Program-made: the position numbers and the translations under genes | The notes under the pieces: model-generated | What the model was told of the DNA's origin: nothing | Databases searched by the model: none | Seen by the model: only the letters and a program-made list of their open reading frames with translations | NCBI GenBank assembly: GCA_947258755.1 | Contig: CAMYJO010000006.1 | Span: 94,426 to 143,609 of the forward strand | Reading direction: 5' to 3' | Length of the DNA: 49,184 bases | From: an uncultured Gammaproteobacteria bacterium | Lineage (GTDB): Bacteria; Pseudomonadota; Gammaproteobacteria; JAADHQ01 | Shown here: positions 2,525 through 6,857 of the stretch, one piece after another | Position numbering within the stretch: position 1 is the stretch's first letter | Layout: each line of letters opens with the position of its first letter

Positions 2525-3937
2525 TTAGAAAATATGAGTCAACTGTAATGCATAACGATTATCAACACCGTCAAGATTACTATTTGGACCTGCACCGGAA
2601 GCAAAGGTTACTGCTTCGGCCTCATTCTTTGAGATATTTAACGTCAAACGTGTCTTCCTGTTTACGTGATACTGTACGCCCAGCGTCAACTCAGTGAATT
2701 CAACCTCTGGCGTAACATTGGTAAACGGCCCGAAACTGGTCGGCGTCTGGTTATCCATACGATTGAACTTGGCGTATCTCAGATCCAGCTCCCACTTTGT
2801 GTTGGGGATCAGATAACCACCCTCGATATACCAGGACGTGGCTTCGGCATCAGAATTCAAACCACTAAATGAATGGTTTGGACCAGGACCTCCAGCAACT
2901 GTACATGGTCCTAACAAACAAAAGCTGGGTTTATCCGGACCCTGAAAGATAACCCCTTCAGCCTTTATCCATTCTGCAGAAACACGGAAAGGTAATTTGT
3001 AGTACTTGGTACCAACGCCATATCGTTTACGTTCATATTCGACAGGATTATGAACCGAGTCATTGGAACCATCGATAAAACGATCACCCGTGGTGTACCA
3101 GGCAAAGGTTTTCCAATCCTGCCTACGAGGACCTGCGCCCGAGAAGATCTTGGTAGCATTCACATACAGATGATAATCCTTATTTTTGTCATTATCAGAG
3201 CTATTGATGCCGTTACCATTTTCGGCCATGAATGAATAGCCAACCTCCCAGTCAGGCGCTACCTTCACGGTATTAAACAATTGCGCACCTATACCACGCG
3301 CCGCAGCAACTGAATCTGTAAATCCATTTAATGAAGTACCGACTGGTAATGACTGCGGGGGAGTATTGCCTGTATAGTTTCTGTTCGGCACACGCTCAAG
3401 TAACAACTGATTTGTACCTGCTGTAAAGTTCACATAATCAAACAGTGCGATACCCTGATAGATTTCTTCAGCCATCGGGATCTTGAATTGCCCGGCACGG
3501 ACACGCGCGATATCCTTGAAGTGATTCAGGGTAATACTGGCATCGGTAATCTTAGCAAACGAGTTACCCGGATTGGTGATTGCATTATTGCCAAACTCCA
3601 CAAGGAAGAAATAATTGACATTGGAATCAATGGGCATACCGGTACCACGCACACCAATACGCGCACGGTTGATATTAAATGCAGATTGACTATCCAGATC
3701 AGGACCAATCATTTTGGGTGGCACATAGAGCCCCGCATTGGGGCTTGTTCCGGCATCACTGGCATCATGCTGATACTGCGCCTGGATAAAACCCCATACC
3801 TTGGCGCGACCTGCCGTATGATAGTCTTCTGCTCCCTGCAACATCAGCCAATCGGCCGCCTGTACTGCTGTACCCATACCGCCTAACGCTGCTGCACACG
3901 AAGTCGCCAACAGCGTCTTCTTTAACATTTTTTTCAT
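2525..3937 (-). CDS. Outer-membrane porin (OprO/P-like)
   Basis: 470 aa from the ATG at 3937, chosen over an upstream ATG because GAGGAG lies 6 nt before it and the protein then begins with a clean signal peptide (MKKMLKKTLLATS, likely cleaved after AVQA). The mature part is rich in alternating beta-strands (INRARIGVRGTG, ARVRAGQFKIPMAEE) and ends with phenylalanine (LTHIF), as expected for a BAM-inserted barrel. The pattern fits the phosphate-selective-porin-like superfamily, but the substrate cannot be read from sequence. It lies 54 bp downstream of the periplasmic DsrE-like gene and probably shares its ECF-type promoter. Confidence 0.8.
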   Translation of the reverse strand: MKKMLKKTLLATSCAAALGGMGTAVQAADWLMLQGAEDYHTAGRAKVWGFIQAQYQHDASDAGTSPNAGLYVPPKMIGPDLDSQSAFNINRARIGVRGTGMPIDSNVNYFFLVEFGNNAITNPGNSFAKITDASITLNHFKDIARVRAGQFKIPMAEEIYQGIALFDYVNFTAGTNQLLLERVPNRNYTGNTPPQSLPVGTSLNGFTDSVAAARGIGAQLFNTVKVAPDWEVGYSFMAENGNGINSSDNDKNKDYHLYVNATKIFSGAGPRRQDWKTFAWYTTGDRFIDGSNDSVHNPVEYERKRYGVGTKYYKLPFRVSAEWIKAEGVIFQGPDKPSFCLLGPCTVAGGPGPNHSFSGLNSDAEATSWYIEGGYLIPNTKWELDLRYAKFNRMDNQTPTSFGPFTNVTPEVEFTELTLGVQYHVNRKTRLTLNISKNEAEAVTFASGAGPNSNLDGVDNRYALQLTHIF

Positions 3938-3991
3938 TATTATCTCCTCAGACATAATTTTTATTCTGTTTGGTGTTTATCTATGAAATTA

Positions 3992-4438
3992 TTAAGGCTT
4001 TACGAGTACGTAACCCTCACCGATCAACTGGAGAATTTGTACAATGCCAGCCTTGACCTTTTTGGCATTGGAGTTCAGCGCTGGCTCATCGCCCAGTTTT
4101 TTACCAAAATTGCGGATAGTGTTAGTACAGGCACTGAAGGTAACACCTTTTTGTGACAAACCTTCGATACGATTGGTATTGGCATTACCAGTCATTAACA
4201 GTCGCAGACCAGGGCCAAAGGCGACGATTTCGATAGCGACATCATCTTCACCATAATGTTTGATCAGGTTATTGGCAACATTCAATATCAGAGTTTGCTT
4301 GAAAGGGTTTGGGTCACTGATTTGCAGTACGATTTTATGTTTTGCGAAGGATTTCGACGCTGCCTGTACGGTAAACGCGCCTAAAGATAAAGTGGCTGCG
4401 ACCAATATGGCTGCCAGCTTCAACATCGGGTTTTTCAT
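3992..4438 (-). CDS. Periplasmic DsrE-like protein
   Basis: 148 aa. A signal peptide (residues 1-26, ending TVQA) directs it to the periplasm. The rest is a DsrE/DsrF-like fold: strand HKIVLQISD, helix, strand VAIEIVAFGPGLRLL (residues 67-81), and the conserved FSACTNTIRNFG with the only cysteine, C104, then GYVLVKP at the end. Cytoplasmic DsrE proteins carry sulfur on cysteine; for periplasmic relatives the role is unclear. The C-terminal domain of the anti-sigma factor encoded divergently is its paralogue. An ECF-like promoter (4543-4570) precedes it. Fold is confident, function inferred. Confidence 0.82.
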   Translation of the reverse strand: MKNPMLKLAAILVAATLSLGAFTVQAASKSFAKHKIVLQISDPNPFKQTLILNVANNLIKHYGEDDVAIEIVAFGPGLRLLMTGNANTNRIEGLSQKGVTFSACTNTIRNFGKKLGDEPALNSNAKKVKAGIVQILQLIGEGYVLVKP

Positions 4439-4542
4439 ATGACTGACTCCTGGGTGTAATAATAATAGTAATATTTAAACATCCCCGTTAAATACCCGCA
4501 GATCATATAGAACCAGCAAGCCACAAAGATGTTATAAATTAC

Positions 4543-4570
4543 TAGACGCAGGTAGCATACGTTTTATTCC
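4543..4570 (-). promoter_or_regulatory. ECF-type promoter of the DsrE-like/porin operon
   Basis: Minus strand GGAATAA (4564-4570) is followed after 15 nt by CGTCTA (4543-4548), about 105 bp upstream of the DsrE-like start. The same arrangement occurs on the opposite strand before the sigma gene. GGAA-type -35 and CGTC-type -10 elements are typical of ECF sigma promoters. Confidence 0.7.
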
Positions 4571-4639
4571 ACGTTTATGGAACAATGATAATTTATTACA
4601 TAGTTACTATATTATTATTTTCTTATCTTATTTGTTAAT

Positions 4640-4667
4640 GGAATAATTCACTTCATCATCACGTCTT
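4640..4667 (+). promoter_or_regulatory. ECF-type autoregulatory promoter of the sigma/anti-sigma operon
   Basis: Plus strand GGAATAA (4640-4646), 15-nt spacer, CGTCTT (4662-4667), about 50 bp before the sigma start. Both boxes and the spacer length match the divergent promoter at 4543-4570, suggesting recognition by one sigma factor, most simply the one encoded here. Confidence 0.7.
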
Positions 4668-4718
4668 AGTATTATAGGCGTACAGTCCAACTATAATAAA
4701 TATTAAACAGGTACTCGC

Positions 4719-5273
4719 ATGAATCCGTTATTGCACTACTGCAAAGAGAAAGAACTAAAAAAGAGAATAGCCGACCAGCGCAGTCGTCTGTATCGCATTG
4801 CCTATTCGTGGTGCCATAATGAAGCACTCAGTGATGACCTGACCCAGGAAACATTGACCAAAGCCCTGAAAAAATCGTCCAGCCTGAAAAACCCCGAGTC
4901 CCTGAACTGTTGGCTATACGGTATTCTCAACAACTGCTGGCGCGACCATTTCCGCCGTGAACGCGAATTTGATAATATTGAAGAATGTGTTTTTACTGTC
5001 GATGAAACACCCGAGTCTCAATACAACCGTCAGTACATCACCGATACCATATTAAGCGCGGTGGCCGAACTACCCATTAAGCAACGTCAGACTCTGACCC
5101 TCGTTGACCTTGAAGGCTTCAGTTATGCCGAGGTTGCCGAAATACTGCAGACACCCATTGGTACGGTCATGAGCCGTCTCTGTCGTGCACGTAAATGCCT
5201 GACCAAACAACTTTTGAATTTGAAAACACAATCCAGGGATGATCAATCACCCTTTCTCAGGAGAGTAAAATGA
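4719..5273 (+). CDS. ECF-family RNA polymerase sigma factor
   Basis: 184 aa, the two-domain ECF layout. Region 2 contains RLYRIAYSW, the DDLTQETLTKAL helix and WLYGILNNCWRDHFRR, which bind core enzyme and the -10. Region 4 (about residues 115-165) contains LPIKQRQTLTLVDLEGFSY and the helix-turn-helix AEILQTPIGTVMSRLCRARK for the -35. It overlaps the anti-sigma gene by 4 nt (ATGA), implying translational coupling. It likely transcribes itself and the divergent DsrE-like/porin operon. The ECF subgroup cannot be assigned here. Confidence 0.93.
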   Translation: MNPLLHYCKEKELKKRIADQRSRLYRIAYSWCHNEALSDDLTQETLTKALKKSSSLKNPESLNCWLYGILNNCWRDHFRREREFDNIEECVFTVDETPESQYNRQYITDTILSAVAELPIKQRQTLTLVDLEGFSYAEVAEILQTPIGTVMSRLCRARKCLTKQLLNLKTQSRDDQSPFLRRVK

Positions 5274-6007
5274 AACACAGTAATGATTATTCCGATGAGT
5301 TCCTGAGCGCCTATCTTGATGGCGAACTAGACCCGGAAGAAACGGGACGCTTGCTAAGCGAGATACGCTATAACCATGCCTTGAGTGCACGCATCACCGA
5401 CCTACAGAAAGTTCGCGAGATGATTCGCTATGCTTATCACGAAAAGGTCCCTGCTGAACAGGCAAGCCATGTTAAAACCGGTACCGTGAAAAAATCAAGA
5501 ATGGCCATCGCAGCCAGCATCCTGCTGTCACTTGGAGTAGCGCTGGGCTGGAGCTTACATCTGAATAGCCAGTCAAATAATGGCCTGATGGATATTGCCC
5601 AAGCCATGCAGATCAAAACCACCACCAGTGCCACCGATAACAGCATTAAACTGGTTCTGCATGTGACTTCAGGCAGTCAACATAAACTCAGGACGGTGCT
5701 TGATGAAACCGAAAGTTTCCTGAACCAATACCAGGATTCAGCTCAAAAGGTGCAGCTGGATATACTAACCAATGGTAGTGGGCTGAAACTACTGCGCGCC
5801 GATCATTCGCCTTTTAGTCAACGTATTAAAGCGCTCCAACAACGTTATCAAAACCTGACGTTCAAGGCCTGCCAAAACGCAATCAAGCGAGTTCAGCAAC
5901 GCACCGGCAAACTACCGACAATGCTGCCTGAAACAGTCACGGTCCCATCCGCGCTGGGTGAGATCATGAAAAAACAGCAGGAAGGTTGGTCTTATATTAA
6001 GATTTAA
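5270..6007 (+). CDS. Membrane anti-sigma factor with periplasmic DsrE-like domain
   Basis: 245 aa. The N-terminus has the anti-sigma pattern DEFLSAYLDGELDPEETGRL (residues 9-28) but lacks the HxxxCxxC zinc motif. One membrane segment spans about residues 78-97. The periplasmic part (124-245) matches the DsrE-like protein at 3992-4438: KLVLHVTS against KIVLQISD, GSGLKLL against GPGLRLL, FKACQNAI against FSACTNTI, and GWSYIKI against GYVLVKP. C201, the only cysteine, aligns with C104. It presumably holds the sigma factor until the periplasmic domain senses a signal. The DsrE-like fusion is by eye but consistent over its whole length. Confidence 0.82.
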   Translation: MKHSNDYSDEFLSAYLDGELDPEETGRLLSEIRYNHALSARITDLQKVREMIRYAYHEKVPAEQASHVKTGTVKKSRMAIAASILLSLGVALGWSLHLNSQSNNGLMDIAQAMQIKTTTSATDNSIKLVLHVTSGSQHKLRTVLDETESFLNQYQDSAQKVQLDILTNGSGLKLLRADHSPFSQRIKALQQRYQNLTFKACQNAIKRVQQRTGKLPTMLPETVTVPSALGEIMKKQQEGWSYIKI

Positions 6008-6067
6008 AGGCAGGGTAAAGATACAAGATAAAAGCAGGGGAAAGATATAAGATAAAAGGTTAAAGGA

Positions 6068-6259
6068 GTGGGAGCGGCCCTTGGCCGCGATATATTTTAA
6101 AAACACCTTATTGCGCACCTTTTATCTCATTGATATTGATTAATTCTCTCTGATGTTTTATTGCTGCACCAGGAACGAATTGCCGGTCTTTTTAGATTGT
6201 GTTCATACAGTGGAACAAAGGGGAAATATTAATAAATCGCGGCCAAGGGCCGCTCCCAC
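6068..6259. repeat. REP pair (REPIN-like) 1
   Basis: Two inverted copies of a 24-bp REP-like unit, GTGGGAGCGGCCCTTGGCCG plus CGAT, at 6068-6091 (one base differs at the head) and reversed at 6236-6259. Each has a GCGGCC/GGCCGC stem after a GTGG-type head, the form recognised by REP-associated tyrosine transposases. Outer purine-rich arms with GATACAAGATAAAAG-like words (6005-6060) are mirrored at 6260-6299. The gap between the anti-sigma and ferredoxin genes is entirely this repeat. No transposase gene is in the window. Confidence 0.75.
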
Positions 6260-6283
6260 CTTTTTATCTTGTACCTTTCCCCT

Positions 6284-6601: not shown

Positions 6602-6655
6602 AGAAAAATAGATTAAAGGTTAAAGATACAAGATACAAGATAAATGATTAAAAAT

Positions 6656-6787
6656 GTGGGAGCGGCCCTTGGCCGCGATAAATAAGGCGATGAATGCAAG
6701 AAGGCCTGAAGAATGAAAAAGAGCCAGATTCATGATTCTTTTCGCCTCACTAGCAAACTGTTTTTCGCGGCCAAGGGCCGCTCCCAC
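6656..6787. repeat. REP pair (REPIN-like) 2
   Basis: A second inverted pair of the same REP unit at 6656-6679 and 6765-6787, with purine-rich (6611-6655) and pyrimidine-rich (6788-6850) outer arms. It fills the gap between the divergent ferredoxin and coq7 genes. A pyrimidine-rich fragment of the same arm type recurs after coq7 (about 7515-7560). Confidence 0.75.
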
Positions 6788-6857
6788 CCTTTACCCTTGT
6801 ATCTTTTACCTTTACCCTGCTCTTGTTTCTTTTATCTTTTACCTTTACCCTAGATTT

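Follow-up and report, generated by a model that had tools for sequence, protein, structure and literature searches.

We found that a gammaproteobacterial ECF sigma factor is paired with a membrane-anchored anti-sigma factor whose periplasmic domain has the DsrE fold. We consider an ECF/anti-sigma switch that reports on periplasmic sulfur chemistry to be the best explanation of this pair, with a probability of roughly 0.58. The genes lie in a stretch of 49,184 nucleotides from an uncultured gammaproteobacterium (contig CAMYJO010000006.1). This whole stretch is called the window, and its relevant features are as follows.

2525..3955, minus strand: outer-membrane protein of the Porin O/P family (Pfam PF07396, E 1e-10)
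3992..4438, minus strand: secreted free DsrE-like protein, 148 amino acids, single cysteine C104 (codon 4127-4129); from the open reading frame and a structure model
4545..4570, minus strand: predicted ECF promoter GGAATAAAACGTATGCTACCTGCGTC ahead of the divergent dsrE and porin genes; from the same de novo motif as the next
4640..4665, plus strand: predicted ECF promoter GGAATAATTCACTTCATCATCACGTC ahead of the sigma and anti-sigma genes; from a de novo motif
4719..5273, plus strand: ECF sigma factor, 184 amino acids (Pfam Sigma70_r2, 3e-12; Sigma70_r4_2, 1e-17)
5270..6007, plus strand: anti-sigma factor, 245 amino acids, with a fused periplasmic DsrE-fold domain; from the open reading frame, an AlphaFold model and relatives
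5270..5497, plus strand: cytoplasmic anti-sigma domain, residues 1-76, with the SDEFLxAxxD motif and without a zinc motif; from weak Pfam matches
5498..5569, plus strand: membrane helix, residues 77-100; from the AlphaFold helix and a hydrophobic stretch
5639..6004, plus strand: periplasmic DsrE-fold domain, residues 124-245 (pLDDT >90; PDB structure matches)
5870..5872, plus strand: codon of C201, the sole cysteine of the anti-sigma factor, invariant in 64/64 distinct fused proteins

The sigma factor is placed in the ECF group by the presence of both region 2 (PF04542, 3e-12) and region 4 (PF08281, 1e-17) in a short protein of 184 amino acids. The start of the anti-sigma gene overlaps the stop of the ECF gene by ATGA. 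On the opposite strand, the porin gene lies 3' of the free dsrE gene after a gap of 36 nt, and the two are probably co-transcribed. The porin cluster was found in 8 named loci, each time beside dsrE, and a porin-like gene is directly preceded by the promoter motif (below) in other genomes. Elsewhere in the window, GTGGGAGCGGCCCTTGGCCGCGAT and its reverse complement are repeated between genes (6064-6090, 6235-6260, 6655-6680 and 6766-6790) as an interspersed palindromic repeat.

The first-pass annotation of this DNA had proposed a DsrE-like domain in the anti-sigma factor, and structural comparison bore this out. An AlphaFold model built with 37 relatives had a pLDDT >90 for most of residues 124-245. 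The ten best PDB matches of the domain in VIA-align were all DsrE-family proteins (Z 11.4-17.7), including MTH1491 (1L1S, Z 17.7), TusD (2D1P, Z 12.3), DsrE (2HY5, Z 12.2), ST0148 and YchN. The six top Foldseek matches were also of the DsrE family. Pfam DsrE (PF02635) scored 22.0 bits on the anti-sigma factor, just under the curated cut-off of 22.7 (E 1.9e-4), and NCBIfam gave no match of the DsrE kind on this protein; Pfam and NCBIfam alone would therefore miss the domain. PF02635 matched 7/37 relatives at E <= 0.001. A chance resemblance to DsrE is ruled out by the exclusively DsrE-family top structure matches and by the recurrence of the pairing in many families.

In the AlphaFold model, C201 ends a strand (residues 196-201) and stands before a helix. 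Exactly one cysteine was present in the last 125 residues, in the same column as C201, in all 64 distinct fused proteins. The residues around Cys78 of E. coli TusD (ALNIC-VAAALRRG) resemble those around C201 (FKAC-QNAIKR). Because hhalign gave no sequence alignment of the domain with E. coli TusD, the equivalence of C201 and Cys78 rests on fold and position. The fold, and a cysteine that ends a strand before a helix, are shared with DsrE/TusD and MTH1491-like proteins (PF02635). Those proteins are usually free, whereas here the domain is fixed in the periplasm by its fusion to an anti-sigma domain, and sulfur transfer is putative. In A. vinosum DsrEFH, sulfur is bound at DsrE-Cys78 (PMC3397948), and by analogy we infer that C201 could be loaded with sulfur. 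Neither thiosulfate nor glutathione persulfide served as a direct source of sulfane sulfur for A. vinosum DsrEFH (PMC3397948), so loading may require a protein as donor. A precedent for a thiosulfonate is M. cuprina DsrE3A, which accepts thiosulfate from tetrathionate (PMC4175335).

The N-terminal part of the anti-sigma factor (residues 1-76) matched zf-HC2 (E 0.0012) and RseA_N (E 0.0056) weakly, in both cases under the curated cut-offs. The SDEFLxAxxD motif was conserved in the N-termini of 37 sequences. This protein had been described as having no zinc motif and a single membrane segment, and both points held. HxxxCxxC, the criterion for the ZAS subgroup, was found in 0/64 distinct fused anti-sigma factors (the window protein and 63 others) within the N-terminal 70 residues examined, and the AlphaFold model has one membrane helix, at residues 77-100. 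Basic residues ahead of the helix fit an N-terminus on the inside. The gene lies directly downstream of an ECF gene in 58/58 loci having enough flanking DNA, which together with the single helix fits a membrane anti-sigma factor; the protein would bind and inhibit its cognate ECF sigma. Membrane anti-sigma factors such as RseA, which acts on sigmaE, have a cotranscribed ECF gene, a cytoplasmic domain, one helix and a periplasmic sensing part. The pair described here has the same arrangement as RseA-sigmaE, down to presumed autoregulation. What sets it apart from RseA is the DsrE fold of the periplasmic part, with its single invariant cysteine.

The pairing extends well beyond the genome in which it was noticed. 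We collected 65 distinct fusion loci in many families, all of them Gammaproteobacteria. Full-length fusions were present in 65 genomes within a 369-genome sample of the class, and among 398 genomes of the phylum they were confined to Gammaproteobacteria. The profile for the collection scan was made from five closer sequences. Relatives occurred in 14/56 kin genomes, and 34 full-length loci were in named genomes (e.g., Ectothiorhodospiraceae, Chromatiales, Acidiferrobacterales and Sulfuricella). Alphaproteobacterial-type profile matches in other classes were free secreted or single-domain DsrE proteins and were rejected as fusions. Two loci (L049 and L050) have tandem ECF/anti-sigma-DsrE pairs, which lie between a divergent free DsrE and a downstream one. 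Downstream of the anti-sigma gene, at ~2.5 kb, 14/34 named loci (L041-L063) encode a fatty-acid-desaturase-like protein, which may be mere synteny.

We found a second ECF/anti-sigma-DsrE pair in the genome from which the window comes (L004 5020-6293, C12), with no adjacent free DsrE. A 423-amino-acid secreted protein with no Pfam match is encoded 3' of this pair, and the arrangement is repeated in locus L020. Upstream of the pair, in both L004 and L020, is GGAATAA-N14-CATCTATAGTA, which has another -10 box and another spacer than the promoters in the window. This difference may keep the two circuits of the genome apart.

The annotation had aligned the periplasmic domain with the free DsrE-like protein and had placed their single cysteines, C201 and C104, in one motif. 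BLASTP confirmed this alignment (residues 35-147 of the free protein and 127-244 of the anti-sigma factor are 25% identical across 118 aligned columns; E 4e-12, valid for this one comparison), and both cysteines fall within the aligned FKACQNAI/FSACTNTI. The free protein has an N-terminal helix like a signal peptide, and its model (pLDDT 88.6) has the same topology as the fused domain. Its profile matched 1L1S (E 2e-22) with the cysteines aligned, and C104 aligns with a cysteine of both 1L1S and 2PD2. A C-terminal proline was present in 21/21 aligned free proteins and in 0/37 fused proteins. In a phylogenetic tree, the fused domains formed one clade (96/94), the divergent free DsrE proteins another (99/92), and the downstream free DsrE proteins a third (100/100). 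The free protein is therefore no recent copy of the sensor domain, and the tree indicates that free DsrE proteins of two separate kinds have come to adjoin the same circuit. A free DsrE was adjacent in 31/58 fusion loci (16 divergent, 14 downstream, 1 both). The remaining 27 loci had none, so a neighboring free DsrE is not always needed. Where present, the free protein may have a role in the circuit; the annotation had suggested that it might compete for the ligand or deliver it.

A different role for it defines an alternative in which the signal is not sulfur. The fused domain might form hetero-oligomers with the secreted free DsrE or with some other envelope protein, and this partner would control release or proteolysis, much as RseB does for RseA. 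DsrE-fold proteins are known to oligomerise (TusBCD, DsrEFH), and both kinds of free DsrE repeatedly adjoin the circuit under the same promoter motif. We consider this alternative quite unlikely as a full account, because in 27/58 loci there is no adjacent free DsrE and because it leaves the invariant cysteine and the association with sox genes (below) unexplained. It can be combined with the sulfur switch.

We searched blindly for two-box words in 54 regions ahead of ECF and free dsrE genes and so obtained a shared motif de novo. GGAAT-N17-CGTC was present in 42/54 upstream regions, compared to 4/54 for the best word in shuffled sequence; it preceded 34/41 ECF genes and 8/13 free dsrE genes. 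The promoter consensus is GGAATAA-N15-CGTC, which in the window stands ahead of each of the two divergent units and is likely to be the promoter of the circuit's own ECF sigma. A GGAA-type -35 and a CGTC-type -10 stand before the ECF gene itself, which at the sequence level predicts autoregulation. In G085 and G101 (loci L112 and L114), the divergent gene under the motif encodes a secreted SoxB-like metallophosphoesterase and not a free DsrE.

The motif is enriched where the fusion is present. The genome of the window contains four GGAATAA-N15-CGTC sites and no reversed-control sites, and two of the four are inside the window. The third precedes a gene for a secreted TPR protein (L103 1005-1030), as it does in a congener (G002; L111 1501-1526), and we count this gene as one more conserved member of the predicted regulon. 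The fourth is antisense inside a FadL-like gene (C2:70300) and probably reflects chance. Chance may also account for the matches that lie in relatives within or ahead of isocitrate dehydrogenase, nudix and mobA genes. GGAATAA-N15-CGTCT had 44 matches in 42 fusion genomes (2 for the reversed control), compared to 7 matches in 80 non-fusion genomes (17 for the control), and the motif is about ten times commoner in genomes with the fusion than in those without.

Genes of sulfur oxidation lie behind the motif in some fusion genomes. These include soxB (736 bits, cut-off 550), soxX (101, cut-off 61) and a TsuA/YeeE-type gene for sulfur transport (PF04143, 238 bits), along with genes for porins, for a thioredoxin-like protein, and for SoxB-like and SoxH-like proteins that scored below their cut-offs. 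We scanned the 550 nt upstream of sox family matches with a weight matrix built on 26 ECF promoters (score >=12). Sites were found upstream of soxB in 8/30 fusion genomes (0 on the opposite strand) and in 0/30 non-fusion genomes (Fisher p 0.005). For soxX, 7/21 fusion genomes had sites (1 on the opposite strand). The loci scanned were the best-scoring sox genes and not a random draw. The same scan gave no recognisable site at soxB in 22/30 or at soxX in 14/21 fusion genomes. The upstream regions of soxB and soxX in the window's own genome had no promoter site, so sulfur control is supported only indirectly for the locus in the window.

SoxB was present in 64/65 fusion genomes (SoxX in 63/65) and in 30/80 non-fusion genomes, the latter picked by hand at approximate intervals along the sample of the class. 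Counted by family, SoxB was present in 39/40 with the fusion and 21/66 without (p 2e-12). Lifestyle may explain part of this co-occurrence; the predicted promoters at sox genes point to a direct link. The evidence for the sulfur link is thus the shared promoter motif, the sox promoters in other genomes and the co-occurrence with SoxB. Of the earlier interpretation, the DsrE fold, the circuit and its conservation stood, and the sulfur link was added by the promoter and SoxB data; the sensing of a sulfur or thiol species at C201 is putative.

These data bear on two other explanations. C201 might sense thiol redox state, electrophiles or soft metals (oxidants, hypochlorous acid, copper, mercury), and sulfur oxidizers would then have the switch on account of the thiol stress to which they are exposed. 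Chemistry of this sort is compatible with a single cysteine, one of the genes behind the motif in a relative encodes a thioredoxin-like protein, and other ECF systems answer chemical stress, as is reported for S. meliloti RpoE1/RpoE4 and sulfite (PMC3511301). We think this unlikely: the domain is a sulfur-carrier fold, the motif precedes soxB, soxX and a sulfur transporter, and a single cysteine precludes an intramolecular disulfide switch. The pair could also be an RseA-like switch for general envelope stress, the DsrE domain being a structural leftover and the porin of the divergent operon pointing to envelope homeostasis. The weak RseA_N-like match and the porin are in keeping with that notion. 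It is highly improbable given that the single cysteine is invariant across a divergent family, that the fusion is almost wholly restricted to Sox-bearing genomes, and that the motif stands ahead of sox genes in some of them.

Our results are most consistent with a sulfur-responsive switch that would work as follows. The ECF sigma would be held by the anti-sigma factor on the cytoplasmic side of the membrane, and the periplasmic DsrE-fold domain would display C201 like the sulfur-carrying cysteine of DsrE/TusD. Loading of C201 with a persulfide, or with a thiosulfonate from thiosulfate or tetrathionate, or a change in its loading, would release sigma; both this release and the direction of the signal are putative. 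Freed sigma would transcribe from GGAATAA-N15-CGTC promoters, including that of its own operon, giving positive feedback. Further targets would be the divergent secreted DsrE and porin and the gene for the secreted TPR protein; other genomes would add soxX, soxB or a sulfur transporter to these. A more specific version is possible but doubtful: that persulfide or thiosulfonate loading directly frees sigma, that the free secreted DsrE relays or draws off sulfur, and that this is a main means of periplasmic sulfur sensing in many Sox-type Gammaproteobacteria.

The annotation had noted the anti-sigma-DsrE fusion as not known from earlier descriptions, and we found no description of it in the literature searched, which covers few subscription journals. 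The parts are of known kinds; we found no precedent for the combination, and an earlier description is possible. The only ECF-sox precedent found was Arcobacter butzleri sigma2, an ECF factor that activates sox genes (PMC3445524); in contrast to the present case, its host is outside the Gammaproteobacteria and the paper names no DsrE domain. SoxR, sHdrR and SqrR also exert cysteine-based control of sulfur-oxidation genes, but they are ArsR-type sulfane-sulfur repressors with two cysteines (PMC10451225), whereas the pair described here would be a transmembrane sigma switch.

How sulfur oxidizers sense inorganic sulfur compounds has been described as little known, and the sensors described there are of the ArsR type (PMC10451225). 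The switch may be how dozens of sulfur-oxidizing Gammaproteobacteria sense sulfur compounds outside the cytoplasm. With a widespread anti-sigma family, a sulfur-carrier fold, one cysteine and a readable promoter motif, the question of sulfur sensing becomes directly testable with one residue and one reporter.
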